DNA of 64,000 nt from Coffea arabica (Eukaryota; Streptophyta; Magnoliopsida; Gentianales; Rubiaceae). Positions within the stretch are counted from its first letter, which is position 1. Every line of letters begins with the position of its first letter. The notes below the pieces were generated by a model. The model had not been told where the DNA came from and did not search any database. It saw nothing but the letters and a program-made list of their open reading frames with translations. Shown here piece after piece: positions 9,986-47,244 of this stretch. The position numbers and the translations under genes are program-made. Location of the stretch: NCBI RefSeq assembly GCF_036785885.1, contig NC_092312.1, positions 20,912,001-20,976,000 on the forward strand, written 5' to 3'.

Positions 9986-10114
9986 ACTTAAACACAATTG
10001 ATGCTTTTTTATATTAGAAACCAGAATACATTTTACTTAAACATTTGATAATATAAAATGTGTTTAATTTGATAATATGAACACATTTGATAATATTAAA
10101 CATGTTTTAATATT
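9986..10114 (+). repeat. Helitron internal direct repeat, left copy
   Basis: About 130 bp here is nearly identical, in the same orientation, to 22350-22482 near the other end of the Helitron. Shared blocks include acttaaacacaattgatg and tttgataatattaaaca. The differences are a 4-bp insertion (aaac) in the right-hand copy and scattered substitutions. Confidence 0.8.
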
Positions 10115-14948: not shown

Positions 14949-15061
14949 ATTTTTTTCCTCCTGCAACTCATAATATAAGTAGCTAAGTGCTGGATGAACG
15001 AAAAGAAAGGTGTAAAATCATGAATATATACAAATAACTGATATACACATGGTTACAGCAG

Positions 15062-18000: not shown

Positions 18001-21000
18001 TTATTTCTGGCCATGAAGGATTGCAAGTCATTGTAATGAATAAATCTGGTTTGCCAAATTTCTGGACCAAAGCCATAGCATCAACATATCTCCTTTTCAT
18101 GTCTCGAGGGCCTCCTATGAATGAAGCTGGAAGGACTACTCGTTGCCCTACTTTTAAACCTTGGCATTGACCTGTTATAACACTATCCATTACGCCTTGC
18201 AGCTGCTCTCTCCTTATGAATTCTTGTTTGCTTTTATAGTAATCCAATATCTGACTTTCAATTTTGATGTACATATCCACAACATATTGCTGAAGTAATC
18301 TACCAGTGTTAAGTATGTTTGGAGAATATTTGTCTCTGATCTGCAATTTATAAGCATAATATTCTCGCATTGACACAAATTCACCATTGTTTTCAGGATC
18401 ATTGGAAACTGAAAGTTACAAAAATAAGGTATAAGTAACTGGTTTCACCATATGAAGTTGCATACATTGATAAGATATTGGATCATCTGAGATTAATCGA
18501 AGATAATGCGAGTAATATGTTCTCAAAACAAGCAGTTCGGGATCAGTAATTATGTAAGCAAGATGTGAGCAATGCACATAAGTAATGTATAAGACATTTG
18601 CATATAGATAATGTGTTAGTTATTCATGTTAGGAATACCTTCTTCTTCAGCAGATATCATGTCTTCAGCAGATTTGAAATTGGTGAGGAGAGCAGTAGGT
18701 TTGTTTCTCTGAACAGATCTTTTTCTCTTTTTGCCATTTTCTCTGACAAATCTTCTAATTCCAGGATGCCAGCCTGTTTCACCAAGTGCAAATAATAGTG
18801 GATATTGCAGAGGATCGTAACAACCATAATAGTACTGGACGAGGTGATCCCTTCCTTCTTTTGTATAAATTTTAATGTGTCTAACATAACTTGTTCCTGA
18901 ACTCTCTGTTTCTGTCCAAAGAGCTGCAACCTGAGAAGCTGTTGGATGATTGAATACTCGTTGATCATTCTGTGAATGTGATTTCAAGACTATCTGATAT
19001 GAATCCAGATTTGGAACGTTTCTTAGACTGCGGAGAAAACATGCGTATGGATTAGACTTCATGACTTCCATGATCTTCATTACTATACTCTCTATTAATC
19101 TTTCTGAAACTGCCATTCTGTTTTGAAGCTCATGATCTGTATCATGAAAATAGAATTGCAGATATAATCCAGATCCTCCATGTGGAATAAGGTCTTTGAT
19201 AAAGTGATAGCTTTGTCCTTGAACTTTGAAGGTATAAATGCCATTTGTTCTCTTGCAAAGCGATTTATCATAGTGTACACCAAAGGAAGTGAAGGCAAAC
19301 ATATTATTGTATGTTCTGACATATGTACGAAAGGATAAAGTTTCATCAGAATGACCAGTGAACAATTCTACAAGAATATCTGGCAATTTATTCTCATGGA
19401 GAACTACTTGTCCGTCTGAGCAACAGAAATTGGGTGTCTCAGAGTGCATTTTTTTTCCTCCACAGTAGTGACAATCAGCTTTTGCAGGTAATCTATCTGC
19501 CTGATGATTAATAAATTCCAGTGCATGAACTCCATCAACAGCCTGATTACCTATAGATTTACCAATTAGTTCAGCTAAACTAAAGGTTGGAACTGAACAT
19601 AAGGAGGTAAAAGAGGAACAATCAGTGATTTGTAATCTATACCTCTGTTTTTTTTTCTTTTTGTTATTAATAGCTTTCACTTGTTTCGCTGATGAATGGC
19701 TTTTGCCTGAATGATTCAAGTATGTATAATTAGAAGCAGAAGCCATAACCTTTATACATGTAGTGGTAGCAATATGATCAAGGTATTTGTATGAATAGAA
19801 GTGGTTTGAGGTTACATAATGCATACTGAAGTTTTCTGATCAACATCAGAAGTAATTAAACAGTTTAATATATTTTAATGAGATGGTTATTTGATGGATT
19901 TTTTATGCCAAATTAGTTTACAACAATAGTGAGAAATAAGAAACTTGATAGTACACAAGAAATTTGAGAATAAAATGACAACCTCATGAGAATTGTCAAC
20001 CAGCTCATATGGTAATTTGAGTTTTTCTATATACAAGATAGTAAATTCAGATCAAAGCTAGTAACCTGCAACTCTTCTTGTTTTAGCAGAACAATTATCA
20101 GGGACTTGATACAGCTGGTGTATTGGGAGGATAGCTGACAAATCTGTTCAGGGTAAAGTTCATGCAATTGTTAGACACAATCGCATCACGAATTTTTTTA
20201 AAAAGCTGAAAGAACATTTGACCTGAAGTTTGTTCAGCTATTTCTGTCAAGAATTTGTAGCAGTTCATGCATATGAATGATTTATCTGAAAAGTAAACAA
20301 GAATACTAATATAGCTGATCATGATAATGTTGATGGTTATATATAAGAAGCAATAATCAATGATTAATTTCGAAGCTTAAATGACCTGCATTGTGTACCA
20401 TGTCAGTAGCTACACATGTATGTTGTGTACCAGAGTTAGAAGCAGATCCTACGTATAAAAATTAGAGATGGAGTATTGTATGAATAGAATACTGTTTATG
20501 ATTTGAGTAGGAAAGATATATTAAAAACAAAGTACACCATGTACCTTTCTCATAGCTTGAGAAGCAAGAAATCTGTTCCTTTAATTTTCTACCCAACTGA
20601 GCAGAAGGTAGTTCATCACTGTTATTTGGAGAGGGAGAAATCCGAATACCAGGTTTTGGAGCACCTATTACAATAGATAGAGTTCAAATTGGTTGCATGA
20701 ATATTATAAAAAAAATTGAAATTGAGATAGGATAACAAACAATGGACAGTCTAATTCACTACAATATAGCAAGAAACACGAATACATATACAACTAAGTT
20801 TAGATGAATTCATTGATTTAAAGTAGATAGAAATGGTACCTGTAAAGTTTTGTGTAAAGTAAGAGCGTGAGAATTCACTACGTGAATCACCTGAAGGTGA
20901 GGTAGAAAAATTTGCAACCAATAATTCCATCTTAGAAAAGTTGGTAAAGAAAAATAAATTGTATGACTAACCTTGATTACAACCAATAATTCCATGAACA

Positions 21001-21425
21001 TTCTCATTGAGTTTGGAAGTTTGACAACCAATAGCTTGGATAACTTTATCATTCAAAGCTAGTCATCAACAAAATAAGGGAAATAGACAGGTTATGATAA
21101 ATATGCTATGCACATACAGATTATGAGAATATAATAAGAGTTTTTGAATCACTATGTACCATGAGAACATTGTTGAGCAGAAAGGCTACGCATAACAGAT
21201 GCAGAAACTGGTGGTTGAGAGGCTTCTTGAAATTGTTGTGGCAAGGACTTGGAAAGTATTTTCTCCAATTTTTTTCTGTGATAAGCTTCTCTGTTTTTTT
21301 TGCGCTGAGCCTGTTTCTCTTCGACAGATAGAGCAGCAAATTTGTCTCTTTTTTTACGATTTCGCTTATCCTTTTTCTCACGAAGTTTATCAGGATCATC
21401 CGTTATGGATAGCTTGGAGCAGCTC
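15062..21425 (-). pseudogene. Helitron Rep/helicase gene with an in-frame TGA
   Basis: The main exons are 18408..15062 and 19835..18639. The upstream exons are about 21425..21160, 21058..20972, 20890..20840, 20664..20545, 20448..20386, 20285..20223 and (less certain) 20104..20066. Every intron proposed is phase 1. The first exon encodes a basic stretch (EEKQAQRKKNREAYHRKK). The 18.6-19.8 kb exon holds a CHYCGGKK zinc-finger-like motif and the GVHYDKSL/FYFHDTDHELQNRM block of the Helitron-like N domain. The last exon has the HUH Rep motifs (FITMTCNPSWPEI; GLPHAHFLIIL; YKYIYKGHDK with the tyrosine pair). It also has a PIF1-type SF1 helicase: GPGGTGKT, IIWDEAPM, VFGGDFRQVLPV, and after the stop TINKAQGQT and YVAMSRAK. 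An in-frame TGA at 15613-15611 separates helicase motifs IV and V; the same frame continues intact to 15062. The true start codon was not found. Confidence 0.88.
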
Positions 21426-22349
21426 CTTTAAGGAACAAACAAAGATAGACAGAGGAAAATCTAGGCGCAAGGAACAAACTATTCAGCTAAAAAGGATGAA
21501 GACTATCAGTACAGATGGAATGAGCTATCAACTAAATATATTAAAAAACAATAAAAAAACCAACTGAACGAAGCAAAGAGAGTAGAAAACCTCCATGGAG
21601 ACAGCAAACGAAGCTTATCAAAGTACCTCTGCTACTGCGTATTATAAGAAATTGGACCACCTCAGTACAGATTGGGATAAAAGAAATTTCCAGTTGCATG
21701 GAACAGCTGAAGGGCTCATGTGAAGTAAGTTTGGATTAGCATAAGAAAATACCTGATTCGAAGCAAGCTGTATGAAGCAAGTTGTAAGATGCAAGATGCC
21801 CTGTAATTTGCATGTAAACTGGTTTTCTGAACGTAGGAAACTGTTTGCATGAAATCTCTGGTGCCTATGTATTCATCGCTGATCAGTAAAAAACAAGAAA
21901 TATGCAAAACCGAGACAAAGAATCTGGAAATGACAAATATAGCCAACCTTAGGAAGGAACTGGTCCACAAAATAAGCATCAGAATGACTAAAACAGTAAA
22001 AAATAGATGGTAGTGGGAGACAAGTGATTTAACCCCTATGACACGTGATTGAACTCTTTGGTCAAAATTGAAGAATAAAGTATATCTCATGTTTATCACA
22101 TATGCATATAAAAAAAATATATCTAAATGCATATATTATCACTTATCACTTAATAAATATACATGATTATATCTATAATATAAATATACATGATTATATA
22201 TATGAATATATAAAAAATTTATCTAGTGGTTCTCTTATATCCACCATAATTGTGGATATTTTTTAATGGCTATTACCTTTATCAATTTATCAATTTTTTA
22301 AAATAAAAATATACATGGTTATCCTTATATTAGAAACCCAATGAATGGA

Positions 22350-22482
22350 ACTTAAACACAATTGATGGTTTTTTATATTAAAAAGCGGAATACATTTTAC
22401 TTAAACAATTGATAATATAAACAAAATGTGTTTAATTTGATAATATAAACACATTTGATAATATTAAACACGTTTTAATATT
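22350..22482 (+). repeat. Helitron internal direct repeat, right copy
   Basis: The partner of 9986-10114, same orientation and about 90 percent identical by eye. The two copies lie about 150 bp and about 610 bp inside the two Helitron ends. Confidence 0.8.
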
Positions 22483-22832
22483 AAACTTGTCAGACAAAGT
22501 TCAATTCATGGTTTAAGTTCAATTCTAAACATTGATTATGATTTAAGTGAAATTACTTTAAACTTTATAACACATGATCAAAGCGATTTGAAATTTTTTG
22601 GGATTGGTGAAATTTTTTCGACATCCACACAATTGTGGAGTAGAACAGAAAATTTTAGATTGTAAACATTGATTATGTATGGTTTATAATAAATTTTAGA
22701 TTCTAAAATTTGAAGAGAAAAAGCCTTTTTTCCTTCTCCATCCACACAGCTGTGAAGTACAACAGAAGCTATGAAAGCCAGCTGCACAGCCACCAGTCGG
22801 ATGTTCAAATCACTGCAAAAGCTGAAGCAGCA

Positions 22833-23026
22833 GTGGGACCAGTCAATGTACAAACCACCATGCAAAGTACAACACCATGAAGCAGGCGCATTCAGCCCAG
22901 CAAGAGTCGGACCAACAACCTACAAACCAGCAACACTCACATCAAGTGCTTGGCTCCAATTTAGCAGGAGCGGTCCCACCATTCAACGTACAAATCAGCA
23001 GCCCAAGGTACAACAGCTTAAAGCAA
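22833..23026. repeat. Degenerate tandem repeats near Helitron 5' end
   Basis: Three degenerate units begin near 22833, 22906 and 22971. Each has the pattern GTSGGACCA or GGTCCCACC, then CAAnnTACAAACCAGCA, and, in the first and third, nnAAGTACAACA. They lie within about 260 bp of the minus-strand TC terminus. Confidence 0.5.
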
Positions 23027-23095
23027 GCGGATGCACTCGAAATCCCACCAACAGTAGAAACACAAAGTGCTTCTTATATATAGTAATAGTATAGA

Positions 23096-25441
23096 TAGAT
23101 AGATATACACCTCAAGTGTGAAAGTTTGCTCCCGAGCATGATCCAAACTTGCTATGATGGTAGACGACCAGGCCAACAGGCTGGTTCACACAACCCGATC
23201 CACCAAATAAAAAAGTAATAATAATAAGAGGAGAAGGAAAATGTTTATGTACACCATCATTATCATCATCGTCATTAACATATTATTATTATTTAGTTTT
23301 AGAGAGACCCCAAACAATGAAACAATTATATTACTGCACCACTATATTTAGAAGAAATAATAAAAGAGCAGCATCGGTCAGACGTAAATCCAAAATTGAA
23401 ATGTGGAAGCCCAAGGCCTACTAAACGCTTTGCAAGTAGGCCCAACGGGCTTCGCCGACGAAGCGTTACGCTTTTCTACAATTATGTAATTAGCCGCGCC
23501 AAACTGTTGCGTAGGCGGAGGCAGATGAAAGTAAATGCCGCAAAAACTTTTTGCCACGTAACCCAACCCATGCTCCCCGCCTCACTCTCTGCTCCCCATT
23601 TTGGAGGTGGGAGTGGAAGCTGGGAAGCAGTAGTAAAATACTCTTCTACTACTAGTCTACTGCCACTCCTCAAAACCCACCCATTTCCCACCGCTCGGCT
23701 CTGTACTCTCTCACTCTATCGAAAGAAGAAAGAAAGGTTCAATCAATCAATTTTCTTCCATTTCTGGCTCCATCCTTTTTTGTGCTAATATTTCTCGATT
23801 TCCCGCTCTATTTCATAATTTGGTCGCTAATTTATCTTACTTGATCGTCGCAATTTTTTTTTAAAATTTTTTTTGGTTTCAACATTCATTTCAGTTTTTT
23901 TTTTTTAGTAAAGATAGTAGAGGATCAAATTCCTCTTTAATTTAACAGTTCAATTTTGATATTGTTTGCTGGAATTGTGATCTGATGATTGTACACTCTC
24001 TGATTTTTCATTCCTGACATTTTTGAGCCCACCAACTCCATTTAGGGCTCTTGCATGTGAGGTTTTTTGGTTTATTTGTTCATTATAGGGGTTTCTAACT
24101 TTTAGCTTTTACCAAAAAAAATTCTGAAATCTGTTTCTTTCTTTCTTTTTCTTTTTTCTTTTCAAAATTGTAGCTTTTGATTTGTTAAATTGGTCGTTTG
24201 ATCATTTTGCATTTTATATTTTTCATGCAAAATGTTTTTGTTTTATTTTTATATTTGTGTTGGAGACTCTCTTTAAGTGAGTCTGCATGCAGATTTTGTC
24301 TTTGCGGACTTGCAGCATCTCGGTAGACCCTTGAGTAAGCTCTAAAAGAAACATTAATTGTTCCGGGTAATTCTTAGCTAAACTTAATTTTAATTTAATT
24401 TCTTTTTTGTCATGTAATGCTGCTGCCTAATCACGGTTTTTCTGATAATACATTCTAAGGTTCGTGCATGTAGGTTCTTTGTCGGTGACTCTTTTGCATG
24501 GCTTCGTAATTTATGGCTTCTAATTATACCATATGATATCTCCTCTTCAAATTTTCCTTTTTTTTAAAAGGAAAAAATAAAAAGAAAAGTTGCTTTTCCT
24601 TATCTGCATGATGTTTAGTTTGGTTTTTCAAAAAATGCACTGACGATTGTAATAGAGTCGGATTTCTGTTGATATTTTTGTTTGTTTTCTTGCTGTCTGA
24701 GGAAGTCATCTAACGTTCGTGCATGCAGGTCTTTTGGGGTGCTTACTGGTAGTGGGCCAGCTACAATGACACTTGAAATTTATTTGTCTTTCGTTTGTAT
24801 TCAAACGTATGTGTGTGGTCTTTTTTTTTTTTTTATATATATATTTCAAATCCTTGTTTCTGAGTTCTGGTTGGTCTTGGAAAAGAATTTTGTTCAATAG
24901 AGGTGTATTATCTTCGTCTGTTATGCCTATATGTTTGTGGATTTAATTGATAATTATCAAGAGCTATAAGAAAGCACATAACTGTTTGTTGATGATGATT
25001 CTGTGAGCTATTTACTTTTCCTTTCAGCTGCAATTGGTGGAATATATTCTCCCATTCTTGATAATTTCGACAAAGTAATCCTTTTTCTCTTGGTTGCAAC
25101 TTACCTTGCAGCAATATTTTGCATGTGTCCATATGCTTACAGAGGATGGTTTGGTTTGAAGTTCTATATAGTATAGAACTCTTATCAGTCCATGTGCTGG
25201 TTCTTACATAATTGTTTGTTCACATCTTACTTGTCACTTTCTCTCTTTTTCTTTAATTTTCAGTTCTCTAGTTTTCTTGCGAGTGGAACATTATACTAAA
25301 GAAAATCTAATACTCAGTAGCCAAATTATGGTCTTTTTGACTGCAGTAACAAGTAACTTAGAATCTCAAGTCAACTGGTTATAATTCATTGCTGCAGGAA
25401 GCCCGTGCATTTAAGACTTTCAGGTTCAAAAGAAGGGAAAG
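23096..25441 (+). promoter_or_regulatory. Promoter and 5' leader of bromodomain gene 1
   Basis: From 23096 to about 23690 is host spacer with GAT/ATT microsatellites and a CT-rich stretch (about 23,690-23,720) that could be the start of transcription. From there to 25441 is a long pyrimidine-rich leader, probably with an intron ending at CTGCAG|GAAGCC near 25397-25399, 43 bp before the ATG. The phrase GTTCGTGCATG(T/C)AGGT recurs near 24,462 and 24,716, and a weaker form lies near 24,050. These could be alternative acceptor sites in the leader. Confidence 0.4.
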
Positions 25442-28400
25442 ATGAAGCGCAAGCGTGGATCCGTTAGACGCAAGCCTAAAAAAACACCAGTGCCAGTTGC
25501 TAATAATGCATCTGCAAATTCTTCTTTTTTGAATGCTCAAGGTTATTCTGGGGATCATGATGGATGTGATGGATTTGATCCTACCATGGAGGGTGAAACA
25601 GCACATGCAAATGCCACTTTAAGTTCTTTCCATCAGGGACTAGATGAACCAGCCTTTCCTGGGGAGACAAATGGTGGCAATTCAATACAGAATGGTAATC
25701 TGCTAAAGAGTGTTGCCAGCTTTGCAGCTAAGCTGTCAAGAACTGTTGGTTCATCAATTGCCGAGCCATCTGATAAAGCACTTCCGTTGCAAGGTGAAAA
25801 GTCACAAGGAAAGAAACCAAGACTATTCCATCAGGATCCTCAGAACAATGAGCAAGAGCTAAATGCTGCCCTTGTGGTATGTTCTGCATAGAGTTTTCTG
25901 TGGTAGCTTCAGCAACAAAATTTGAACGGTTTTTTTGGTGATAGCTTGTAGAAGCTTGAGTTAGTTTTTCATGTTAATTCCCTGGATGGTTTTTATTCAC
26001 TTGCAGGTGATTAAGAAGATTATGAAAACAGATGCAGCTAAGCCATTTAATGCTCCTGTGGACCCTGCAGCCTTGGGAATTCCAGTATGTAGTTGGCAGT
26101 TTTGGTTACAACTGCTTCTCATTCCTTTTTTATTTCCTTTTTTAAAGGATATTTTTCCCCTTCAGCCACTGTTGTGAAGTGTCCTTTTTCCTTTGCTAAT
26201 CTTATCGTCAGTGGTAGTGAGGTTTGTTAAAGGCCTTCCATATGCCTTTTTCTGGAGATTCTTTGCCCACTCCTGCATTTTTTGGGTCTTGGATCTTCGA
26301 CTTGTTGATGTATCAAAACATTTTTCATGGGATGGCCAAACTCTTGTGTTTGTTCTGCCATCGTTCTAGTCTTCCTCTTACATACGAACCCTTTCTCTAG
26401 TATTTTATTGCAATTTTTAGATTTGTTCGACTCCTGCACATTGTAATGGCCTTGCTATTTATGTTCTTTCTTATGATTTAAATAGGTCTTTTGGAAGAAT
26501 TTTTACTCTTTTTAGAAACTCTTAACGTTGACTGACTTCTCAAGTCAAGATTTTTTTTTTCAAATATTCTCTTGATATTAATTGGGCTGGGGTTGTACAC
26601 AGGATTATTTTGATGCTATTGTTTCTCCCATGGACTTTGGTACGATATGCAACAACCTAGAGTTGGGTTTAAAGTACACAGATGCAGCAGATGTCTACAA
26701 GGATGTGCAGTTAATTTGGGATAATTGTTCCAAGTACAATAAGAAAGGTGATTATACCCTGGAGCTCATGAAGCGGGCAAAGAGTAACTTTATAAAGCAC
26801 TGGAATGCAGCTGGTTTATTCAGGCATCCTGAAGAAGCTGATAATGGTACGAGTGTCCCTGGTCTGTTCCTTTCATAGTCATTCTTCTGTTCAGATGTTG
26901 CTCAACGTGATTCGCACCATTGAATTCATTGGTTTAGGCAAAAACCGAATGAGCTTTGCTTATCTTTACTTTCAGTAGTTGGTTTAGAAAGTGGGCCCAC
27001 TTTACCCTTTAATGAGGCTCTGTCATGTCTATATTGTTTACAAGCTCATTTCTATTGGTGGGGATTGGAGATAACATTAGTAGGACCTGTGTGTTTAACT
27101 TCAAAGCATACATATGTAGAAAATCATAAACACTTTCAGTTTGATTGCAACTCATTATAAGATTCAATACTTGTAATTTGCAACACATATTCCTCTCCTT
27201 CATCAAATTGTAATAGATAGATAAGGACGGGAAAGGAAATAGTGGAGGTTAAGTCTAAGAACTAGCTGTTATTACATGTTCTCTAGTACAATTATAGCCA
27301 TTCAATTCCTTGTCTTTCTAATTACTGATTCAATTGTCTTGTTTATCAAGTACATTTAGAAGCAGATCCACAGGATATTAATGGCTGTTTCACAAGGCAC
27401 AACAAAGAAGGGCATATGTTTCCAGCAGGTTCCATGATCAACAACTCCATCCATCATGAAAGACCTGATTTGGTTGGTCTTTACCAGGTGCAGAGACATG
27501 AATGTTCACCTTGCTTCAGCCACATGCACTCCCAGCATATATGCTCCCAGTGCCAGTGTGAGTGCCAATCTTCAGAGTTTCAGTCCTTCCAGCGCCATCG
27601 TAGCAGACGTCGTCCTACTGCAGGTAACCTCTCTACTACCTGTAAAGGAGATGCTTCTCATTGTTGTATGATTTGCCTAAGTTATTAGACTTCTTAACCA
27701 TTGCTGACATTGTGGTCCTTGGTTTCTTGATGTGTACTTTTTAAATGGTTCAACAGCTTATGCCAGAAGTAGTAGTCTTCCTTGTCATATTTGGTGTCTT
27801 CACTGACATATTTTTTCTGTTTATCATTGAAGAAATAGAAGAGTTTTTTTTTTTTTTTAATTCTAGTGTTGCTAGGGAAGTTTCTGAAACCCTTATTGTC
27901 TAGTTGAGCTTTGGACCCAACTTTTTTGTCTAATATGGTAATGAAGCTCTTATCTATCTGGTCAACTCAATTGTCTTCTTGCACATTTGGTTTTCACATC
28001 CTGGTGTATCTTGCACTTTTTTCTGCTCTCTTGTGTTTTGCTCTTGACTGCTTGCTTGAGTTAGAGTCATAAAATTGGTATATGGTGTATCATTTATTCA
28101 TTATCATGTTGAATTTCCCTCCCTCCATCCCAAAAGCAGCAGTAGTCTGGAGAATTACGAAATATTACGTACTTGCTTAATTGGATCTTCTTAGGTTCAC
28201 AGTTTTTATGTTTAAAATCACTTGTGTCATCTTTATGGCTCTACTGGCTTAATACATCCTGATTGCAGCTGCAAATGTTTTTTAGCTTAGCTAGAGCCAT
28301 GGACTAGGAGCTTCATCATGTTGAATTTCCTTCTAGTTGCTAGACATACAAGATTTCTTCTATTGACCTCTTCTGTATTTCAATTTTTGACATTTTTCAC

Positions 28401-31400
28401 ATTGTGAAAGCTGCTCTAATTCGTCATCTATATGTTGTTATCAAGTCCTGAAATTTAATTGGTGATTAGTTGTTACTTCTGCTGCTGTCAGTAAAAGAAG
28501 AGAGCATGCAAACTTTAACAAAGTCTAGTAACGGATGCCATGTAGGTAGGCATATGTGTTCCAGTGGACCAATTAGTGGAGAGCACTACAGCCAGCGGCA
28601 GGATGAGATTAGGCCCTTCCAAAAACTCTCGTGTCAATCCTCACCTAGTTGTGGCACTCAAAGCCATTCCTGTGAGAGACCCTACAAGTATCAATCGAAC
28701 TCTAGCCATCTCCAACCTTCTAGCCTACTGTCTGGCAGAGATACTCAAACTGCAGGTGTGCCTACCATTTACTCTACTCAGAGAAATAAATTCATATGTG
28801 AGAATGCAGTTGTCTATTATAGAATTTTCGTAGGTTCTTTCACAATATTAGTTGTGCAAGCATGTTGGGGACGTTTCACATGCTGCTTTTATTTTCATTG
28901 GAGCAGTTATAAATAACATGATGTTCCTAATTTTGTCACTCTTCTGAGTGAGCATTAATGGAATCTATTGGGAACCAAAGTTTGCAACTTCAATTCTGAA
29001 GAGAACTAAAATAAAGCTGAAGAAAGACTTATGTTTGTTTGAGTTGTTGCATTTTGTGATGCTACTAGGGTTCTATGGAAAAGGAAGGTAAACACAAACA
29101 GCTTTGTGCTACAGTAGGGAAAGCAAATAAGAATGAAGTATGAGAAATTGTTGATAGAAGTAATGGAAAGGTGCTTACAAAATAAATTGTCATCTTTAAT
29201 TTGTGACATGTAAAATTAAACATTTATAAATCTGCAAGTTTTTTGGTATCCTAATGAAATGTGAAACATGAAGTCTTGAAGTGTTGATGAATCATAGTTA
29301 TGTAGACTTCAAGTCTTTTACAAGATCTCATATGTAATGGCAATGATCCAGTATGCTTAATGGTGCTGTTGCTTAAGTACTGATTTTGAATCGTTTCACA
29401 TGAAGGCCATGTGCATTTACCAATTCATGGAGTCTCTTTTTCCTCGACATGCAACATATGTGAGCATGCTTGCAGTTCAGTTCCAATGGGTTATAATTCC
29501 AACCACCACAAGCACTATCAGATGTGCTCCTGTCCCATTCATGAGCATCAATCTTTGCTGAGGTGTTGTGATCAATATCAGCAACATCAGAATTCTTGTC
29601 AGCATTACTCACACTCAAGTCAGATGCGGAATACGGAGCCTGATGTTAGAGATGCTGGAAATGCAGGTATCCACATCTGTTTTCAATAGGATTCATTTCA
29701 TGTGTGTGATCTGGCCCTCTCTTTTCGTGGGTGCAATCTATATAGCTTTCTCGCTTTGGCCACATTCACATTTCTAGTTGAATTCTTCACTGGATCTTAG
29801 TGTCCAAGTACAGGAGTTTGTCATTAATTCTATTTGTTAATCTTGTAATCATCAATTTTGGGCGATCAATCAAATGGAGAAATCAAAGAACCTGTCTTTT
29901 CCCTTGATACTGGCTCCACTTGTCTCAAGCAGTGGTAGTGATCATTCTATTAGGGTTCTTTATTCCATAACTTGTGTTACTAATTAAAGCTACTTAAATC
30001 TTAGCCATCCTGAAGATTTGGGATACATGCTTGTTGGCTCGTCAACCTTGTTGTATCAGATATTCACAATTTTAAGAAAGTTGAATTCTATAGAAATGCT
30101 TATTGCACAAAATTCACATTTATCAATTTGTCGTTTGGTCATTTGCATATGCACTCTGCAGTTGAATCTACTGTCAGACATACCGAAGGCAGACTCAGAT
30201 ATCCAATGGCCCCAGTTACTGATGGTAGCAGCCACCAGCAGCAGTGTCAGATGGGTCCAAGCCAAGTGCCATCATCCCCAACGATGCATAGCAACTCATG
30301 TCAGCCTCAGGGAAAGAGGTATCAGTGCCAGTTAGACTTTGGTCATTCAGAAAGACCCCTGCCAGAAGACAGGCCAAATATTGGTGGAGCAGGTATGCTC
30401 GTTATCATTTTCGGGGTTTGATGCTTAGCCTATTCCTGTTATCAAACCTTCATACTTTATAGTGATATGATGGTATTTTATGTGGATCCACTTTGAGTGC
30501 TGTAGATGTGGAATGCATCTTTGGTCCCATGTATGGAGATCATTCAATTGGTTTATATATGCCCTGTTACTGCATTGGTGTTGTATGTAATCTGTGCAGT
30601 GGCTAACGATTCAGTACCTTGTCATTTTCCTTCTATCTAATTAATATATACTGTTTTCTCTGGTGAAGAACATTCAAATATCCCACCACATGCAGAATCT
30701 ACCATTAGACATGAGACTGACTATTCGGGTAGCCCAGATGATAATGATGATAGCAGCGATGAGCAGGAATTTCAGCTAGGCCCCAATGAGTTACAGTCAC
30801 CCTTATTGGGCCAGTCAGATGAGCCAAAGGAAGATGGCCCCCAATTTCAACCAAGCTCAAGCCAACCAGAACCTCCCATGCCGCAGAGTGGGGCTAATAT
30901 GACAAATGCAGGTGAGCTGTTCACTATGCTACAATCAGGAAAAGTTCTCTTTCGATATTTGTGCCATCAGATGTTTCATTTGCTGTTTTTGTCCATTAGA
31001 CCACGCTGGTTTGGAGAGAAAAACTCGAGGGCGAGGACCCACACGGTGCCTTAAGTTGTTGGCAGAAGGGATGCGGATATCAGTCACCACAAATGAACTG
31101 GGGCAACCCGTTGGCCCTGAGGCTTCAAAATTGGTTAGCTTTCTGGGCACTCTTGCAAGGAATGGAAATTTGGCACCTCTTACATACGTTGACTGGAGGG
31201 CTGTGCCTGAAGAGAGCAAGGAGAATATGTGGGAGGAAGTTCAGGTAACAGGAACTGTTTCTCTCTTCCTTTGCTCTTTCAAAAACATTAACTGTTCTCA
31301 ATCATATGATGCAGAAGAAGTTTGAAATTGACCCAAATAGTAAAAGTTGGGTTATTAAATCCCTTGGCAAAAAGTGGAAAGACTGGAAATCCAAGTTGAA

Positions 31401-32715
31401 GACGGCACATTACATCACTCATGCAACTGATGAGGAGAGGCTAGCTGACCGTGATGAGAGAGTCCTTCCAGAACAATGGGCCTACCTTGTTTCACATTGG
31501 AGTTCCGAGGAAGCAGAGGTATCTAGCTAGCATGATTTCATGTGATTTTTATCTTGTGGAAGTCACCGTGGGCTGTTCTTTTTTCCTTCTCATAACTCAT
31601 CGACTTCACATTGTGGATATCTGAAATTTGTCTCTCATGATAGAAACGGAGTGCTACAAATAGGGCTAATCGTGCACAGCAGAAGTTTGGGCACGTTACA
31701 GGAACCAAGAGCTTTGCACGGATACGTGAAGAGCAGGTAAATACGCTCTCTTTGATACTAAATTGCGGAAAGTTTGGCCCATGGTGTTTCATTGGAGTCA
31801 ATAGGAAATGGTCACAAGAATGATCCTAACGACTGGTGTCTGGAAAAACAGCGTGTTAAGAGATCTGATGGGAAGGCTCCATCTCGGGCAGAGCTATTCA
31901 TCTTGACTCGCACGCGCAAAGATGGAAAGCCTGTAAATGAAGCATCCTCTGCTGTAATTGTATGGCTGAGCACAAGCAATTTAATAGTTTCTTCAAGTTT
32001 TGCCAAGAGTATACAGAAGTATCCCTTTGGATTTGTTTTTAATTGTTCAAGCACTTGATTTTCTTTACAGACCCAGCTTCGTGAAATTGGAAGTCAACGA
32101 CAGAATGCCTTCCAGAACAACAATGCTGGAGGTGACGTCTTCTCTCAGGTTGTGGGTCGAGATAGACATGGTCGTGTGCGTTGTCTTGGATTGGGTCCAT
32201 CTCCTTCTGATTTTGTGGGACAAAAACCTACGCAGGCTGAGGCCATGAAAATGGTGACAGAGGCGAATGATGAGGTACGCCAGATGAAAGAGCGGTTGGT
32301 GGCCATGGAGCAGACTTGTACGCAGATGGCACAACAGATGGCTACTATGATGTCGATGATGTCATCCATGCAGAAAAACTCGACAGCTGACAATGTGCCT
32401 GATGTAGTAAGTTCACAATTCCAGCTCAGTGTTTCAGATTTCTTGTACTCTCATCACAGCAGGAGGTTTAAAGTGGAATGTGTAGGTTCAAACACACCCA
32501 AGAGAAGCTGTAGGTTCAGCATTTTAGCTATTTGCTCTAAGCAGCACAAACATGCATATGGCAGAGAATAGAAACTGGATGGCACTTGGGATGTACTAAT
32601 TTTGATGCTCTTGTCGTGATAGGTTGTTAATGGCTCAGGCAATTCCGAAGGTTCACCAGATCAGCAAGTACAATCCTTGCCATTAAGACGCTCAAGTAGA
32701 AAAGGCAAATTTTAG
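25442..32715 (+). CDS. Bromodomain protein fused to a Transposase_24-like domain
   Basis: Fourteen coding exons give 1,050 residues: 25442..25876, 26007..26084, 26603..26846, 27360..27623, 28492..28755, 29406..29666, 30162..30392, 30669..30911, 31000..31244, 31315..31518, 31644..31736, 31798..31959, 32071..32406 and 32623..32715. Residues 1-145 are basic and disordered (MKRKRGSVRRKPKK). A bromodomain covers about 150-245 (FDAIVSPMDFGTI; IWDNCSKYN with the acetyl-lysine-binding Asn). Exons 4-8 (about 253-673) are Cys/His/Gln/Ser-rich and end acidic. Exons 9-11 (about 674-854) match the plant Ptta/En/Spm transposase domain: VDWRAVPEESKENMW, KKWKDWKSKL, QWAYLVSHW, SATNRANR and GTKSFARI. A coiled coil (VRQMKERLVAMEQTC) precedes a basic RRSSRKGKF tail. 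It is probably a nuclear chromatin-binding protein. The acceptor of exon 12 is the least certain. Exons 1-3 are paralogous to the gene at 35442. Confidence 0.82.
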
Positions 32716-33700
32716 GCGTGCAGCTGCTAAAGGAGCTTTAGTCCCCTCTTCAGGAAATGCAAAATACTATATTATGTCTGTCACACTAATTTAATTAGAT
32801 CCAATCCAGTCTTTTATTGGGGCTTTAAATTATACATATATACTTAGATGGGCTGAAGTTTCTTAAAGAATTTCTTTTTCAGCAAATTTCTCGGTAGCAT
32901 TAAGAGTTTGGTGAATTCTCAGCACCCGTTTGGTTCGGACTCCGGAACAGCAGCAGCAATGAGTATAAAATGATCCTCTAGCTTAGCTCCCATGGTTGAC
33001 ATATGCTGGAGGAGGGCCGATGTGTTGGCAGAGTGTGTATGCCATGCCATGAGGCACAACAATAAAGGGGGAGATGGAGCATGGGTGTCGTCGTGCAAAC
33101 GAGTGGAAGAATTTCTTTCTTCTTTTTTTTGTTGTGGTTTGGTGAGTGATCAAGGCAAAAGTGCCCCCCAATCTATGATTCAAGACTTTTTGGTATAGAT
33201 TCATTATCGTCATTGAAGAAGAGTATCAAACACTAAATTTATCGGAACAACGCTAATAAAATTTTTAAAAAAAATTCCTTGCAGAGCAAAGTTGATTCTG
33301 CTTGCTCTAAGAATGAATGATAGCCCATTAACTAGTTCTAATAGTAATAAATCAATAAACACGAACGTTTTAATTAGTGTAACAGAATTTTGTCAAACTT
33401 TTGTAAAATCTTACGAAAGGACCATCTAAATGCACATTGCACGAAGACAAATTTGTTCCTTTTTGGCTAAAATCTATATATATAACAGAACATGAGAGAT
33501 GAGATGGTTTTAGAGTTAAATTTTTTTGGCACTTTTTAAAAAAAAAAAATTTATTTCTATCCTGATGTACGCAATGATCAATGCCGTAAGTAATTTTAAT
33601 AACTTCTAATATTTCTTTTTTAATAACTTTTTAGTAGTACATTCGGCTATATACTTCAGGAGAAGGAAGTGAAACTTACCTTTCCAGGGCACGAGGCCCA
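32716..33700. other. 3' flank and spacer between bromodomain genes
   Basis: This holds the 3' untranslated region of bromodomain gene 1 and then AT-rich spacer. An 'acccgtttggttcggact' motif near 32,924 resembles the edge of a miniature element, but no partner end was found. No other gene was seen. Confidence 0.4.
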
Positions 33701-35441
33701 TGCCCATCTGTTATAAGCCCACCCTATTCTACGCGCAAAGTGGAGAATAGGGAAAAATAAATAAATAAGGGAAAAAAGCAGGAAATCAAAACCAAAGAAT
33801 TTTTTTTGAAAAAAAAAATCAAAAATTAAGTATTGCATCTTTGGAAGCGCGAGCTCCCGCTCAATCTCTGGTAATCAAGTTTTCAATTCCAAGTCTTAGG
33901 AGCTCCGAAATCGAACCGCAACCCGCTAAAAAGAGGTTCAGTTCGAAGCGCAACGCAAACCCCCAGAAAAGAGGTCCGAAGCGTAACCCAGTTCGTGCTT
34001 TCTCTCTTCCTTTCGTGCTCTAATTTTCTGGTCTTTAAGTTTTTTTTTTTTTTGTTTTTACTGTTGTACCATTGTTATATGACTCAGCTTAGATGAACAG
34101 AATGCTGTTTTTGAAATTCTGCTATTGCTCGATTGGAATTCTTTTGAACAAATTTTTTTGACAGTATTAGTTGTTTAAATTGGAATTGAAGCAAAAGAAC
34201 TCATTTTGTATCTTCAGTAACTGGGAAACCCTTTTTTCCCAGCTTCAGTTGAGGTGTTTAGGGTTTTTCTGTATATTTCCTATTGTCGTGGTGGATTTTT
34301 TCAATTAAACCAACTGGTTGTTGAACTCTTTTTTTTTTTTTTTTTTTCTTGGGTTTTTTTGTGGATGTATTCTGTTGAAACTGCAAATGTAAACAAAATT
34401 TTGCATCTGACTCCTTGATTTATTCGTTGACATACACATTATTACCTTTTAGTGAGTATTTGTATGCATTTTTCCTGGGAAGCCTATCATGGTAAAAACT
34501 TGTAAGCGTCACTGGGTTAATTAGGGAATCAAGGTAGAAGAGTTACTTGTTCATTGGCCACTTGTATAGCAGTAGTGGTTCGTTGTCCTTTTTAATTGGA
34601 ATGTAGCAAATTATGATTGCAAATTGCTGTCTCTATGGGTTAAGACTAGAAAGCTGTGAGTATTGGGAAACTCGTAGGCTTAGGAGCTGTTCTATCTAGT
34701 GTGGTGGAAGGGAAAGCTTTTAGAACTAAAAGGGAGCATGGAGAGTTATTAATGTCTAACTAGAAAAAACCAAGTTAAAGAAAAAGTTGGGTTTTTGAAG
34801 TAAAACTCATTTGATTTTAATAAATTGTGCAAAGATGAGTTTTTTTTTTTTGCTGTTATTTTAATGTGGGAAGTTTGGGGCAGGATCACTTTTGTGATGG
34901 TATGGTGGTTAAGGTTTTAGAAGAGAGTTTGGTTTATGAATCAGATGGACCACCTCTTGGACACATGAACTTGTGGTCCTTTGTACCTTTGGAATTACTT
35001 TCCAAGGACTACATGTCAATGCAGTTGGAATTTACTTGTCATGGACATGCCCCAGGCTCACTGGAATGTTAATCATACTATTCCCTGAGCTGAGGTTGTG
35101 GTAGGGGTTCAGGTTGTGCCAATCACTGTCTTTGTTGGACAGAAGAGTCACATAACATCAGCATCGGTGTTATGTTCTTCTTTCAGCTGGCCATGCTGAT
35201 GCTCTGGAACAATTCAATATGTGGTCTGACAGTTTTGCTTATTCATTTAATGTATTGTTAATATCTAGAGATGTTTGCATTGCTAATACCTGCAGTGATC
35301 ATTGCAGAATGGAATATATCTCCCCTTGTTGTGCACTTTAATTGATGTGGCTCTAAACAAAGTAGATTGTTGCCTAGTGTGTCTGGGACTTTTATTATAA
35401 GCTTGGAAATTCATCAGTCGAAAGTTAGCTAGTTGGGGGGA
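33701..35441 (+). promoter_or_regulatory. Promoter and 5' leader of bromodomain gene 2
   Basis: A GC-richer island at about 33,840-34,020, with CT-rich and AGGT-like sites, looks like a non-coding first exon. It is followed by a long pyrimidine-rich intron with poly-T runs (about 34,040, 34,330 and 34,840). The 68-codon ORF at 34866-35072 has no ATG-initiated family resemblance and is treated as intronic. The coding start is at 35442. Confidence 0.35.
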
Positions 35442-38400
35442 ATGAAGCGCAGACGTAAGGGTGGTAAGAAAGGCAAAGCAAAGAAACCGAGAACACTTAG
35501 TACAAATGAGGTGGCACAAAGTTTGGTTACCTCAAATACAGAAGACAACCCTGTGATGAATGAATTGGACAATGATGAATTTGACTCTGGACCGGAGGCC
35601 GAGTCTCCATCTTCAACTGGAGCTGATCTGCCTGAGAAACCACCAATTGTAGATGAAAAACCAAAAACTCTTAATCCTGGCCATCCAAATGATGATACAA
35701 AGCCAAAATTAGTTTATGGACGTGTTAAAGTGAAGATCAAAGCTTCAAAAGCATTAGACTTGCAGCTCACTTCTTCAGATGCACCCACACACAGTGATAC
35801 TGAGAAGAGTGGACAGCAAGTGGAGGTAGAAAACCAGGGAGCTCCCAGTGAAAAGATGGAAGACAGTGCTAACTCATTGCCTGAATCTAACATAGGCAAT
35901 TCTGGGAATTCATCTAAAAGATCTGGCAGCATAAAATTAAAGTCATCAAGGGGATTTAGTTCATCAAGTATGAGCCCATGTAGTAATGTTGAAATGATGA
36001 AGGGAGAGAGTACACAGCAGAAAGAACCTGGGGTGCTCCGCCCGAATCCTCAACATGACAAGCAAGAGTTAGATGCTTCTTTGGAGGTACATATGAATGA
36101 TCTGTTCGTTTTTTGATGTCACGTGTTTCAGAGATACTTCTCGTGAATGAGCTGTTCGTTTTTTGGAGGTACATGCAAATGATCTGTTCATTTTTTGATG
36201 TCACGTGTTTTTTGGTGTCACCTGTGTAGGTAATAAAGAAAGTTATGAAGATGGAAGCAGCTGAGCCCTTTAATGTACCAGTGAATCCTGTTGCTCTTGG
36301 AGTACCAGTAAGCATTTGTTGCTTTGCAAAGTTTTTGTTGCCATCTTATGCTAATGTTGGATGCAGAACAAATGGGGCCTTAAAGACTGTAATTTGCTAT
36401 ACAGTATGCTGATAGTTGTATTTGAGAAACTTCACAGAAAATGTTGCTCTAATCTTTTACCCTATATGGTACAACTTGTTTTAAATACTTGGAAGTTTTG
36501 AACATAGTACTGTTGTATTTGGTGAAAATGTTGCGTGAATGCTTAAGTTGGAACGTGTTACTAATTTCAGCTAGATGTCTTTCATGATTTTCATTTTATT
36601 TCTTTGTTTATCTTTCACATAAAGTTTTTAACATCAATTTATTGCCAAATGGGGCTGAACCAGGACTATTTTGATGTCATTGATACGCCTATGGATTTTG
36701 GCACCATATGCAGTAATCTCGAAAGTGGTATCAAGTACATGAACTCTGAGGATGTCTACAGAGATGTGCAGTATATATGGGATAATTGCTACAAGTACAA
36801 TAATAAAGGTGATTACATTTTGGAGCTCATGAAACGGGTGAAGAAGAACTTCATGAAACATTGGACTGCAGCTGGCTTATACAGCGATCATGCAGAGGGA
36901 ACCAATGGTAAGATTTATTTTATCTAAGGGGCCGTTTGGTTTAAGGATATTGGAATCAAGATTTGAAATAATGCCGATTTTCAGTGTTTGGATATAGGTA
37001 TGGGTTTGAGATTTTGGAATGAATTCCAAAAATCGGGCAACTCTCCATTTCTGACCAAATTGAGAGGTTTTGTGAATTCCCTTTATTTAATTCCAAAGCA
37101 GATTTATTAAACATTTTCCACATTCACACTTGAACGACCCAATCGCTAGCACTCTTTGCTTTCCTCCCCCACCACTGACAACCCTTCTCCTTCCACTTCC
37201 CAATCTACTAGGCCCGTTGCTCTTTGTCATTCCAGCCCCACTCCTCCATCCCTTTCCACCACCATAGCCCGCAAGGCCCTAGGAATATGGGAGAAACTTC
37301 TATTTCACAAAAGTATTTCATCCTGATTGGCTTTGGCATGTGATGAACTTTTTCTGTTTTCTGGTTATTAGTCTCCCTAGGACCGTTGTTGATTTTTTAG
37401 ACTGAAGTGGTAGCGCTAACGGACATGTAACTGGTGGAGTGATTGCTGCAACCTCCCTCTTTCACTTCTCTCCCATGGTGAAATCCCTTCAGCTATTTTT
37501 ATTTTTGTTTTTTTCTGTTGAATCCTATTCGTCTTTGCTATAAATCAGGTCTGTTGATTTTGAAGTTTCATGAAAATTGATCAATTGTCCAAGTGATTTT
37601 GAGTTCCAAGAAAATTCATCAATGGTCAATGGGTTAAGTGCTGCAATAATGTGTAAAAGAGGAACGAAGAAGAAAAGTTAAAAATATAAAAGAAATTAAA
37701 AGTACAATTAAATAATAGACAATTTAATGTAATACCCATTCCTTGTTAATATTTACCAAACATATGTTGTTGTAATGATACCTTTGACCAAAACCCATAC
37801 TAATTTTTGAGATATTATTCCAATTACAATTCCAATTCCAACCAAACGCCGAGTAAGCATTTTATTTTTTGACTTCGTTGTGAAAGAATACTATGTGTCT
37901 TATTTCTTGATTATATCTCATCTCTATGCTTGTGTATTGGGGTTCAGCTGTCTATTGACAATATTAGAGAACCTTTAGATGTGCTTCTGTTTATTGACAA
38001 GGAACATACTGCTGTTGGTATTGCTGATATGGTTCAGTTCTTTGATACACAAATCGGACCCTTCAGTTTCTTCCGTATGATTGTTTTGTATTCTGTTTGC
38101 TTAGTTCTTACACTGAATGGTTCTACATATTATAGTTTGTTTCAGTATTGGTAATTGCTGTTAGAATTGTGCAAGTACAAAAGTGAATCATAGGTTGTTT
38201 CCGGTTGAAAGTAATGGTAATGCTTAAAAAGATTATACATAAAGGTTTGAGCATAGCTCAGAAATCATTTGTTCAGTCTGTTCTTACCTACTTGCTGCAA
38301 ACAAATTCAAAATATACTTTTTAATACCTTTCTTCTTGCAGGCAGTGATACAATTCAAGCAATGGATGTGACTCCTTCCATTCACGGAAAGATGCCTGTA

Positions 38401-41267
38401 AAAAATGGTGCCTTGAACGCTGCATCAAAGAAGCGCCATGGGTATGTTTCTGCAGGTTATCTTGTATGAATTTGAACTACATTTTGGTTTCTGTTGACCC
38501 CTACATGATTAAATAACTGACATATCAAAATAGGAACCTGAGAGCTTATTGGCCTGTTTGTTCTGAAACTAAATGGTTGATGATCATTTTGAGTGTTTTT
38601 GCTAATTGTCTGCAGATATGCTAGTATTAAACCATTTAGCATGGACTGATATCACTATTTGAAGAGAGACACATAGTTCAATGTGTTATTGGTTCTTCTG
38701 TCTCTCCCTTTCTCTCTGTCAATTTATGATTATTTTGGTTTATCTAGATTGACATGTCCCTTGATTCTGCTGCACTATATTGTTTGATGAGATTTTTGTT
38801 CTTCACTTACTATTAACAAGCAATGAATTCCTTGTGCCCTTTCTTTGTTCGTTGTTATTTTGGAATAAAACTATGAATATAGACAAGTATTATAGAAAGG
38901 ACTAAGAAGTGCAAAAATGCTGGAAACTGGTTTAGAAGTCTCAAATTAAAATAAAATGATAAAGACAGAGTAGAACACAGAGACAACTAGGTAGAATTAA
39001 TTATAAATTGGGGAGTGAAGTCTTTATTACTCATTGTGCATAGGTATTATACAGGAAAGAAAAGGTTCTCTTGCTTATTGATGCAATTTTTTGTTAGTTT
39101 CAATTTCATTAACCACTTTGAATTTGAAGTACAAGATTTTTTTCAGGCATTACTAGCTTAGTCACTCGTCGGTGGTGAGCTTCGCTTGTAATCCTTTTGT
39201 AGCTATTTTGAGTTGATGTGATTTTACAACGTATTCCAGTCTTAAAAAGCACAAGGACGGTTGTCTTTGTGCTATCTGTGTAATGATGCGGCGCAGACAG
39301 GAGCGCGAGGAGACTTCTCGAACGTTGGATGATCAGTTTGATGCTGGTGATGGTTATATGGATGAAGAGTTTAAGCCAGAGGTATATTTATTCATCGCCT
39401 TTGTTCAGTGCTTTTTGGTTAAATGTTTAGAAAGTCATAACTAGACCACCTCTGTGTCGGATTTTTGAAAAACAGCTTCTTCTTTTTTTTTTCTATGACC
39501 TGAGTTTTAGGAACTGCTGGTAGCTAAAGCTCTATATTGACTTTAGCAAGCACCACAGTTCACTCTATCTTGAACAATGTTCTTGCTTAAGCGATCTGCT
39601 GTTAGACGTATGTTTGATTCTCCATCCTTTGTTAATGTTTGCTCTACTTGTTTGTGGCCATAGCTTCGTCAGTTTCCTTTTGCTCATGCTAAGTGGTGTC
39701 TCCACAGGTCTTCTTTGAACATCTTTGCTTAGGCTTCTTTCACCTTTTTTCAGTTGATGCTACTGATACTTTTGTATTCTAAATCAGTAGAGACATCAGA
39801 CATGAAAGCATGCACTATTTGTCCAAATAAATTGGATGACCAGTAGCTAAGTGTAGAGTTCTTGGTGGTTGTCCCTGGTCTATTGTGGAGATGGGTGGAT
39901 GGGTGAGGTTATGGGGCTTTGAATTGTGTTCCGCTGAACTTGTGGGACAAGCTAACTATTTGGCTTTACAGGGGATTTTGGTTGAAATTTCTGATAGTAA
40001 TCAAATGTCGTATCTGTTAGTTTACAGTCTGCTGAGCTTATCTGTTTTATGAGTCGTGGTCCCTAGGGGAGGTCACAGCAACTGTGTAGAACACATAAGA
40101 ACCATCAGGAGCATTATTCTGTATCTTATACCATGTCATAATTATGTTATCTTCTGGTTTGAAGGAAGCTTCACCTACAGGAAGTCCTGGTGGAGATTAT
40201 TCTTTAGCAAATATGGACAATTCACAAGAACAGGTTGCCGATGCTGACCTTGAAGAGAAAGGAGATGAAATGAAGTTGCAGGATACTGAAAATATATCAC
40301 AACAGCAAGAGGACAAGCCTGAGGATGACAAGGAGAATTTATTGACAGATGAAGGAAAAGAAGAAGGTGAAATTTGTGAGCAGTTGGATCAGAGATCTAA
40401 AGACGAGCATGATGCACAAAACCATCCACCAAATCTGGAGTCAGGTGATGACTTGTCAAATAAAGCCAGCAGGGAGAAAACACCTCTACAGCATGAAGAT
40501 AATACTGCAGCAATTGAGCAACGGAAGACTAAGGTGAGAAATTGACTATATCTGCTCGATAGGCTCAATACTAAGAGGTTGGTTATTAATCTTTAAAATG
40601 TAGTCAATTGAATATTGTAAGAGAAGCAAAATAGAAAAATGAAAGAAAAGGCATTTGTAGCTCCTATTGCATACTTAAACAAAACATTTAAGTTGAAATT
40701 CCGTACATTTGGTCACCACTAAAGAAAACTATGAGCTACACAGATCTCTGTTTACTTTGTCAACTTATATTCAGTCAATGTATTTAAAGACTCTTTACAA
40801 GCATAGAGGACAATACCTTTTGTTTGCCTTGTAGATATGAACAACACACTTGTTCTGTCCAGGTATATGGCTAGCAGAATTGTTTCATGACCCATTGTTG
40901 TCGCTAATGGTTTTTGGCTTGAAAACTGATATGCTTTAAAATTTCCAGCACACTTTTGTCGCTCAATATGTCACCAAAAAATGACACGATTATTAAATTT
41001 TGCGCCTCACTCCTTGGTAAATTGGAGATTATTCTAACTCTGGGATATGGCGCTTATTGTTCACAGGAGTTGCTGGACAAGAATCAAAGAGCTAAAATGT
41101 ATGAGAGACTCCGTTATTTGGAAAATCCCATGCTTTTTGAGTTATGCGGCACCCTTTTTGATGATAAGAATAAATCTGTTTGGACGGGACCGCATTCTCT
41201 TGTTCATCAGGAGCGTTTTCCTCGCAAGAGCTCCATTCTTGCAGCTATTACTTCATTTATGAAGTAG
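35442..41267 (+). CDS. Bromodomain protein, tandem paralogue 2
   Basis: Seven coding exons, 35442..36086, 36230..36307, 36664..36907, 38342..38441, 39240..39381, 40165..40533 and 41067..41267, give 592 residues. Residues 1-215 are charged and disordered (MKRRRKGGKKGKAKK; a VYGRVKVKIKASK strand). The bromodomain (about 222-315) contains DYFDVIDTPMDFGTI and IWDNCYKYNNKGDY. Exon 5 carries KKHKDGCLCAICVMMRRRQ, a cysteine-containing basic motif typical of this plant bromodomain group. Exon 6 is highly acidic (EDKPEDDKENLL). The last exon has NQRAKMYERLRYLENPML...LCGTLF...SVWTGPHSLV...SSILAAI. It probably reads acetylated histones in the nucleus. Exons 2 and 3 are exactly as long (78 and 244 bp) and in the same phase as those of the gene at 25442, with most residues identical, so the two are tandem duplicates. 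A miniature element sits in intron 3. Confidence 0.88.
36928..37853. mobile_element. Tourist/Harbinger-like element in intron 3
   Basis: A 926-bp insertion is bounded by TAA (36925-36927) and TAA (37854-37856). Its terminal inverted repeats are GGGGCCGTTTGGTT at the left and, reversed, CTCGGCGTTTGGTT at the right. Inner parts also pair (GGATATTGGAAT / ATTCCAATTCCAA). The TAA target and the GTTTGG-type terminus fit the PIF/Harbinger (Tourist) group. There is no transposase ORF, so it is non-autonomous. Confidence 0.7.
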
Positions 41268-42098
41268 CAAGTAGCTGCGGACATCGTTTCAGCAATTCAA
41301 GGAGCAAATCAAAACTATGAGTGCGTCTTTTCTTGGCTTTCAAATTTACACCAGGACCAAGGAGTTAATGGTTGCTTGAGGAATCTTTGATGTTTCATGA
41401 CATGTTGAACGGCGAAGTGCTTTTATGTGATTTATTCCATCGCAGTACCCCCACTCCTTGCCTCCGAACTGTCTTCTACTCTTTGTTCCTCTTTGGATGG
41501 TGAAAAGATGTTTGGAAAATCGAATGCAGTCAGTCACCTGATCACCTCTGCGGTTTGAATTGATGGTGCGTTAGCCCTAGCATCAACAGGCAACAGAGCT
41601 GCAGAAGTTTTATCTCATTTTAATCAACTAAGTTCTGGCTACATAAAGGTCCTCAGGCACGACATAGTGAGCATGTTTGGTAACAACCAGAGAATATCGC
41701 TACTACTAATATAAATGAAAAAGGACAAAATCTATGCATCTTGCATGAGCTAACAAAATTAATAGAGTAATTTGCGGCTCCTTTCACAATTTAAATCAAG
41801 ACACAAAAGATGCTATTCTTGTTTGCTTCATAAAGTCGGACAACTCTCAATACCCCTTCTCAGTCTATCCTAAGAGAGACACAAAATGAGTGTTGTATAC
41901 CCAGGAAGCAGAACTCTTCACGGCTTCTGGTAAAACATGAAGTTAGTGGCTGCCACTTAATGAGTATATCAAACACACAATGCAATGTCATCTAAGCAGC
42001 AGCATGAGAATTGAAACAATCGGGTGTTATGCAAGCAAATGATGAATTGGTGCAGAAAAATCATCATGAAACAGAGTCCTTCCTTGGAGATGACCAAT
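41268..42098. other. Convergent 3' flanks
   Basis: The 3' untranslated regions of bromodomain gene 2 (+) and the pseudouridine synthase gene (-) face each other here. No other ORF or RNA gene is recognised. Confidence 0.5.
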
Positions 42099-47148: not shown

Positions 47149-47244
47149 CGCTTGCTTGCTTGCTTGCTTTAATAATGTTCCGTTCCGTTTGTTTCACTAC
47201 TTTCTAGTTTCAATTTCTACCACTTGTTGTAGTGATCGATTATC

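Follow-up and report, generated by a model that had tools for sequence, protein, structure and literature searches.

A 64,000-nucleotide stretch of plant DNA (positions 20912001-20976000 of contig C3, called the window here) contains, on the plus strand at 25442-32715, a gene that is probably a genuine chimera of a bromodomain gene with part of a transposon gene, followed 2.7 kb downstream by the start of a second bromodomain gene in tandem. Intron-rich genes and elements of CACTA type point to a plant source. The fusion gene has 14 exons with GT-AG introns, which bears out the single phase-consistent frame described in an earlier note on this DNA; spliced together, the exons give one coding sequence of 3108 nucleotides that encodes 1035 amino acids and a stop codon. 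They are as follows.

Exon 1, 25442..25876, plus strand: 435 bp, with the ATG, a basic start (MKRKRG) and a last part that aligns to exon 1 of the paralogue.
Exon 2, 26007..26084, plus strand: 78 bp, start of the bromodomain, same length and phase in the paralogue.
Exon 3, 26603..26846, plus strand: 244 bp, bromodomain with the PMDF and YN motifs, phase-1 donor.
Exon 4, 27351..27623, plus strand: phase 1-1, rich in Cys, His and Gln.
Exon 5, 28492..28755, plus strand: phase 1-1, resembles exon 6.
Exon 6, 29406..29666, plus strand: phase 1-1, eight Cys and 12 His in 87 amino acids.
Exon 7, 30162..30392, plus strand: phase 1-1, resembles exon 8.
Exon 8, 30669..30911, plus strand: phase 1-1, acidic.
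Exon 9, 31000..31244, plus strand: beginning of the CACTA TNPA-type part (RGPT...DWR), with a phase-1 acceptor as in CACTA-type elements.
Exon 10, 31315..31518, plus strand: contains GKKWKDWK; Transposase_24 is entered here.
Exon 11, 31644..31736, plus strand: Transposase_24.
Exon 12, 31852..31959, plus strand: Transposase_24.
Exon 13, 32071..32406, plus strand: Transposase_24 finishes here and is followed by a Met/Gln-rich stretch (about residues 950-1000) that by eye resembles a coiled coil.
Exon 14, 32623..32715, plus strand: basic tail and stop codon.

Placing exon 12 at 31805-31953 was rejected because stops break the frame, which 31852-31959 keeps.

Comparison with Pfam identifies a bromodomain (PF00439) at residues 146-225 (E 6.3e-17; 61.8 bits versus a cut-off of 21.7) and Transposase_24 (PF03004) at residues 810-938, encoded by exons 10-13 (E 6.2e-36; 124 bits versus a cut-off of 28.7); weak matches to Spectrin_SESTD1 and Myb_DNA-bind_5 are both under their own cut-offs. 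The earlier note was right about the Transposase_24 domain but not about its position, given as residues 674-854, and its description of a transposase-derived C-terminal half is too generous, given that exons 9-14, the transposon-derived part, contribute 359 of the 1035 amino acids and that residues 253-676 match neither parent. The bromodomain aligns with BRD4 structures, as do its SPMDFGTI (PMDF) and NCSKYN (YN) motifs, which we take to be bromodomain hallmarks. No NCBIfam family matches residues 1-252, a sequence search of the PDB with exons 9-14 finds no relative at E <= 1, and none of 85 pattern matches in viral contigs is a relative. Host and transposon exons share one frame, as is asked of a host-transposase fusion.

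The neighboring gene provides a comparison for the host part.

Tandem paralogue, 35442..41267, plus strand: seven exons, 592 amino acids, a bromodomain and then a different C-terminus with GLKKHKDGCLCAICV.
Exons of the paralogue, plus strand: 35442-36086, 36230-36307, 36664-36907, 38342-38441, 39240-39381, 40165-40533 and 41067-41267.

Its fourth exon was ended at 38441, which keeps the frame, and not at 38455, which breaks it. The bromodomain (E 2.1e-16) is the sole Pfam family in its product, which is 56% identical to the fusion protein across 178 amino acids. Exon 2 (78 bp) and exon 3 (244 bp) agree in length and phase between the two genes, so that the sharing of exons 1-3 noted earlier stands for these two, but not in length for exon 1 (645 bp in the paralogue versus 435 bp in the fusion gene). 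Neither exons 4-8 nor exons 9-14 of the fusion gene match exons 4-7 of the paralogue (best E 0.87), and the paralogue's C-terminus, with its CLCAICV motif, is absent from the fusion. Across exons 2-3, nonsynonymous divergence (dN) between the genes is 0.18 and synonymous divergence (dS) is 1.39, from which it follows that the duplication is old and that constraint has acted on the bromodomain ever since. When the genome (1.198 Gb, 131 contigs) was searched with exons 1-8, all 37 candidates being scored, 33 matches were returned; beyond the fusion gene and its neighbor on contigs C3 and C4, these are just bromodomain pieces whose identity does not exceed 41%. At 36928-37855, within intron 3 of the paralogue, lies a stretch that starts GGGGCCGTTTGGTTT and ends CCAACCAAACGCC and by eye resembles a miniature inverted-repeat transposable element.

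Contig C4 is collinear with the window at 98.0% over 23103-33085 and at 97.7% over 33622-44368; it most likely represents the homologous chromosome (the other haplotype), the alternative being a recent homeologue. Both the fusion gene and the paralogue are intact there. The two copies of the fusion gene differ by 30 coding substitutions and no insertions or deletions (indels) in 3108 nucleotides, versus eight indels in 4166 nucleotides of intron, and all splice sites are retained. Missing from the collinear C4 copy is window segment 9837-23102, in which lies a Helitron-like element some 13 kb long (about 9839-23095, minus strand). Its ends, as judged by eye, are CTAG with a GC hairpin at 9839 and, opposite, TCTATACTATTAC; a 934-amino-acid frame at 15611-18415 within it matches Helitron_like_N (E 2e-55) and PIF1 helicase (E 2e-72).

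The source of the C-terminal part was sought with exons 9-14 in a genome search in which 113 of 426 candidates were scored, and its counts are lower bounds. There are at least 122 matching places, none of which, among those listed and besides the two fusion copies, exceeds 46% identity, and many of the weaker matches are multicopy with equal scores. A genome search with the PF03004 profile (150 of 170 candidates scored) found just two places and missed the gene in the window, presumably owing to the division of the domain among exons. Eight matching loci (L036-L043) were fetched, 10 kb each, and eight frames from five of them (L036, L037, L038, L041 and L042; L039, L040 and L043 were left out) were scanned against Pfam. 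Transposase_21, the domain of the catalytic protein tnpD, occurs in four of the five (L036, L038, L041 and L042) and DUF4216 in L036, L037, L038 and L041, which identifies these relatives as CACTA-type elements and PF03004 as their second, non-catalytic protein. Thus the "transposase-type" domain of the earlier note is transposon-derived but not a transposase in the catalytic sense, PF03004 being an accessory domain of TNPA/Ptta type and Transposase_21 the catalytic part.

Exons 9-10 were aligned with four of the eight loci (L037 and L043 have stops or frame shifts, L039 matches exons 10-11 only, and L042 belongs to the same family as L041), to which the fusion is 42% (L036), 38% (L038), 36% (L041) and 34% (L040) identical; the four transposon copies are 28-61% identical to each other. 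Of 28 positions invariant in all four, 25 are retained in the fusion; the three nearest copies share 53 invariant positions, of which the fusion retains 36. Exon 9 (residues 677-758) lies outside the PF03004 model, yet it is conserved in the transposon proteins. TNPA of Spm/En has the subterminal repeats of CACTA elements as its binding sites and can serve as a suppressor or regulator, and such DNA-binding proteins vary widely between elements (PMC2613891).

The numerous CACTA-type elements with PF03004-like genes in this genome would agree with a reading of the 3' exons as a recent insertion or remnant, functionless, beside a bromodomain gene. This explanation is disfavored, and we consider it very improbable: the four sampled relatives are just 34-42% identical over exons 9-10, there is no credible match to tnpD (Transposase_21, DUF4218) or DUF4216 in the window (six frames, four loci; E 0.46 and 0.73; the control L042 was found), and the fusion gene is present in both copies whereas just one of them has the nearby Helitron. 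Around the gene, matches to a loose CACTA end pattern number 49 versus a shuffle mean of 40.7, hardly an excess, since 9 of 100 shuffles reach 49; no clear CACTA end was seen, nor any long inverted repeat framing the gene between 24000 and 36000. What the earlier note held of this locus, that one of two duplicated bromodomain genes bears a transposon-derived C-terminus, is upheld by a gene intact in both collinear copies, far from the transposon copies found in the genome and with no credible match to tnpD or DUF4216 in the window.

The manner in which the two parts are joined may be read from the introns. In L041, introns matching 9/10, 10/11, 11/12 and 12/13 were found by eye in the same places and in phase 0, and an exon-9-like exon has a phase-1 acceptor in five of seven loci (L036, L037, L038, L041 and L042, of which the last two are one family; acceptors picked by eye), while L043 is frame-shifted and L040 has no clear acceptor. 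Exons 9-13 of the fusion gene thus brought their introns along from the transposon. Introns inherited from CACTA-type elements are no evidence of domestication, as which the earlier note had taken them, because the intron positions and phases are shared with the elements of this genome. The join itself is explained by a bromodomain exon 3 that ends in phase 1 and a transposon exon that starts in phase 1. A soybean element produces a mosaic mRNA that links a portion of exon 1 with exon 11 (PMC2613891).

The phase-1 acceptor of exon 9 also argues against a separate gene that starts there. Two neighboring genes might have been read as one: a shortened bromodomain gene whose end lies within or beyond exons 3-8, and a TNPA-like gene standing alone from near exon 9. 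The 14-exon model comes from genomic DNA, exon 9 can be read upstream in its frame to an ATG at 30906, where a start is possible, and the frame of exon 3 continues into intron 3 to a stop ten codons on. We judge this explanation unlikely all the same, since exon 9 has the acceptor phase of the transposon gene, so that an upstream exon is expected; since exon 8 ends in the matching phase just 88 bp before exon 9; since exons 4-8, all of phase 1-1, can be accommodated where donor and acceptor are both of phase 1; and since every donor and acceptor is retained in the C4 copy.

Exons 4-8 (residues 253-676) are 231-273 bp each; Cys, His and Gln abound in exons 4-6, and exon 8 is acidic. Exons 7 and 8 are related (none of 1000 shuffles scores as well) and exons 5 and 6, for which 8 of 1000 shuffles score as well, are probably related, judging by this similarity; a common origin of all five was rejected because eight of the ten exon pairs are indistinguishable from chance in shuffles. 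No other place in the genome matches exons 4-8 at E 0.001, and there is no match in the paralogue, nor in the eight fetched transposon loci at E 0.05.

Comparison of the C3 and C4 copies of the fusion gene allows selection to be estimated by one-sided binomial tests against neutrality (2 of 1035 codons cross the borders between parts and were omitted from the parts). The whole gene has 18 nonsynonymous and 12 synonymous substitutions (p 0.021), and exons 9-14 have three and six (p 0.006; dN/dS 0.145); for the paralogue, p is 0.053. Constraint on the transposon-derived part is suggested, and none is seen on the middle part. The CpG ratio (0.58 in exons 9-14, 0.23 in exons 4-8, 0.24 in exons 1-3, 0.40 in the paralogue and 0.35-0.55 in six transposon spans) is not informative as a trace of methylation. 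An old chimeric gene that now drifts without function would agree with exons 4-8, of which the dN/dS between copies is 0.98, but would hardly agree with the lack of any stop or indel over 3108 nucleotides in either copy, or with the dN/dS of exons 9-14; we hold drift to be quite improbable.

The explanation that we favor, and consider fairly likely, is a chimeric host gene, single-copy per haplotype, in which a bromodomain reader and a CACTA TNPA-type part make up a predicted tethered chromatin reader. Several observations weigh against it. Exons 4-8 show no sign of constraint (11 nonsynonymous and three synonymous substitutions, p 0.59), and the test of exons 1-3 (four and three, p 0.20) is not significant. 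The test of exons 9-14 depends on just nine substitutions in one pair of copies, 17 of the 53 positions that are invariant in the three nearest transposon copies are changed in the fusion, and the gene is known here from genomic DNA of one species. The assignment of the paralogue and of fusion exons 1-3 to the BRD5 (AT1G58025) type is a tentative one.

Assuming that the chimera is a single host gene, its birth and function may be outlined as follows. After a bromodomain gene of putative BRD5 type had been duplicated in tandem long ago, one duplicate would have retained exons 1-3, the acetyl-lysine reader, and, past its own intron 3 (phase 1), gained 3' exons from a CACTA TNPA-like gene. These would be exons 9-13 and perhaps exon 14, and the first of them, with its phase-1 acceptor, could be spliced to a phase-1 exon; the phase 1-1 series of exons 4-8 would sit between the host and transposon parts, and a single transcript is predicted to cross all 14 exons. 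By analogy with its family, the TNPA-type part may grip DNA motifs and may self-associate, perhaps via the Met/Gln-rich stretch of exon 13, so that the fusion protein is a candidate for sequence-specific or self-associating binding; its bromodomain would bind acetylated histones. Such a protein might accumulate at acetylated chromatin close to motifs that are CACTA-like or derived, or recruit chromatin factors there, and so regulate genes or CACTA elements. Without the C-terminus of the paralogue, it may no longer join the SWI/SNF complex of Arabidopsis BRD5, and it may compete with its neighbor for acetyl-lysine or for SWI/SNF.

Arabidopsis BRD5 has a single bromodomain (PMC9170682, PMC10451976) and a length of 572-582 amino acids (PMC10030601), and co-purifies with the CHR12/CHR23 subclass of SWI/SNF (PMC9170682); the fusion differs in the absence of a paralogue-type C-terminus. 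A bolder version, which we regard as possible but doubtful, is that a plant wired a CACTA DNA-recognition protein to a SWI/SNF-related reader of acetylated chromatin, which would find transposon-derived motifs and read or alter the acetylation-linked state of nearby genes or elements, the phase-1 acceptor serving as a ready-made exon-capture module.

To our knowledge, the host-transposase fusions that have been worked out in detail are animal ones, and we know of no domesticated transposase of FAR1/FHY3, DAYSLEEPER or MUSTANG type that is a bromodomain fusion. The animal fusion genes KRABINER, SETMAR and CSB-PGBD3 (PMC12062965; CSB-PGBD3 also PMC3459987) likewise join a host domain to a transposon-derived DNA-binding part and regulate genes, and the present fusion may work in a comparable way; it differs in being a plant gene with a bromodomain, an accessory CACTA TNPA-type protein and unrelated middle exons. 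A plant fusion of another kind joins ankyrin repeats with DUF4219 (PMC12062965). FAR1/FHY3, DAYSLEEPER and MUSTANG are plant host genes derived from MULE or hAT transposons, generally single-copy and without element ends (PMC2528002); the fusion gene is likewise transposon-derived, but from CACTA. It resembles TNPA/Ptta of En/Spm CACTA elements in a PF03004 match far above the cut-off and in intron places and phases like those of the CACTA-type copies of this genome, and differs from them in having no tnpD partner in the window, one place per haplotype and a bromodomain joined to it. The open literature searched, which left most subscription journals outside its scope, contains nothing that combines bromodomain, Transposase_24 and plant, or bromodomain, Ptta and transposase; in it, bromodomain, transposase domain, plants and fusion co-occur only in the domain list of a survey of nucleotide-binding leucine-rich repeat proteins and in a Tetrahymena genome paper. 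If the bromodomain-TNPA fusion is real, it would be an example from plants for which the donor class is plausible (CACTA-type elements still reside in the genome), the host parent is clear (the tandem paralogue) and splicing offers an easy way to the join (the phase-1 intron ends match); with donor class, host parent and splicing route identifiable, the steps of its birth would be testable.

Elsewhere in the window, two features were noticed by eye on the plus strand.

10696-12166, plus strand: two adjacent, similar short frames of 126 and 134 amino acids, apparently a tandem pair of small proteins.
47236-48372, plus strand: a gene of MADS-box type, one frame of 378 amino acids with a long His/Gly-rich tail.

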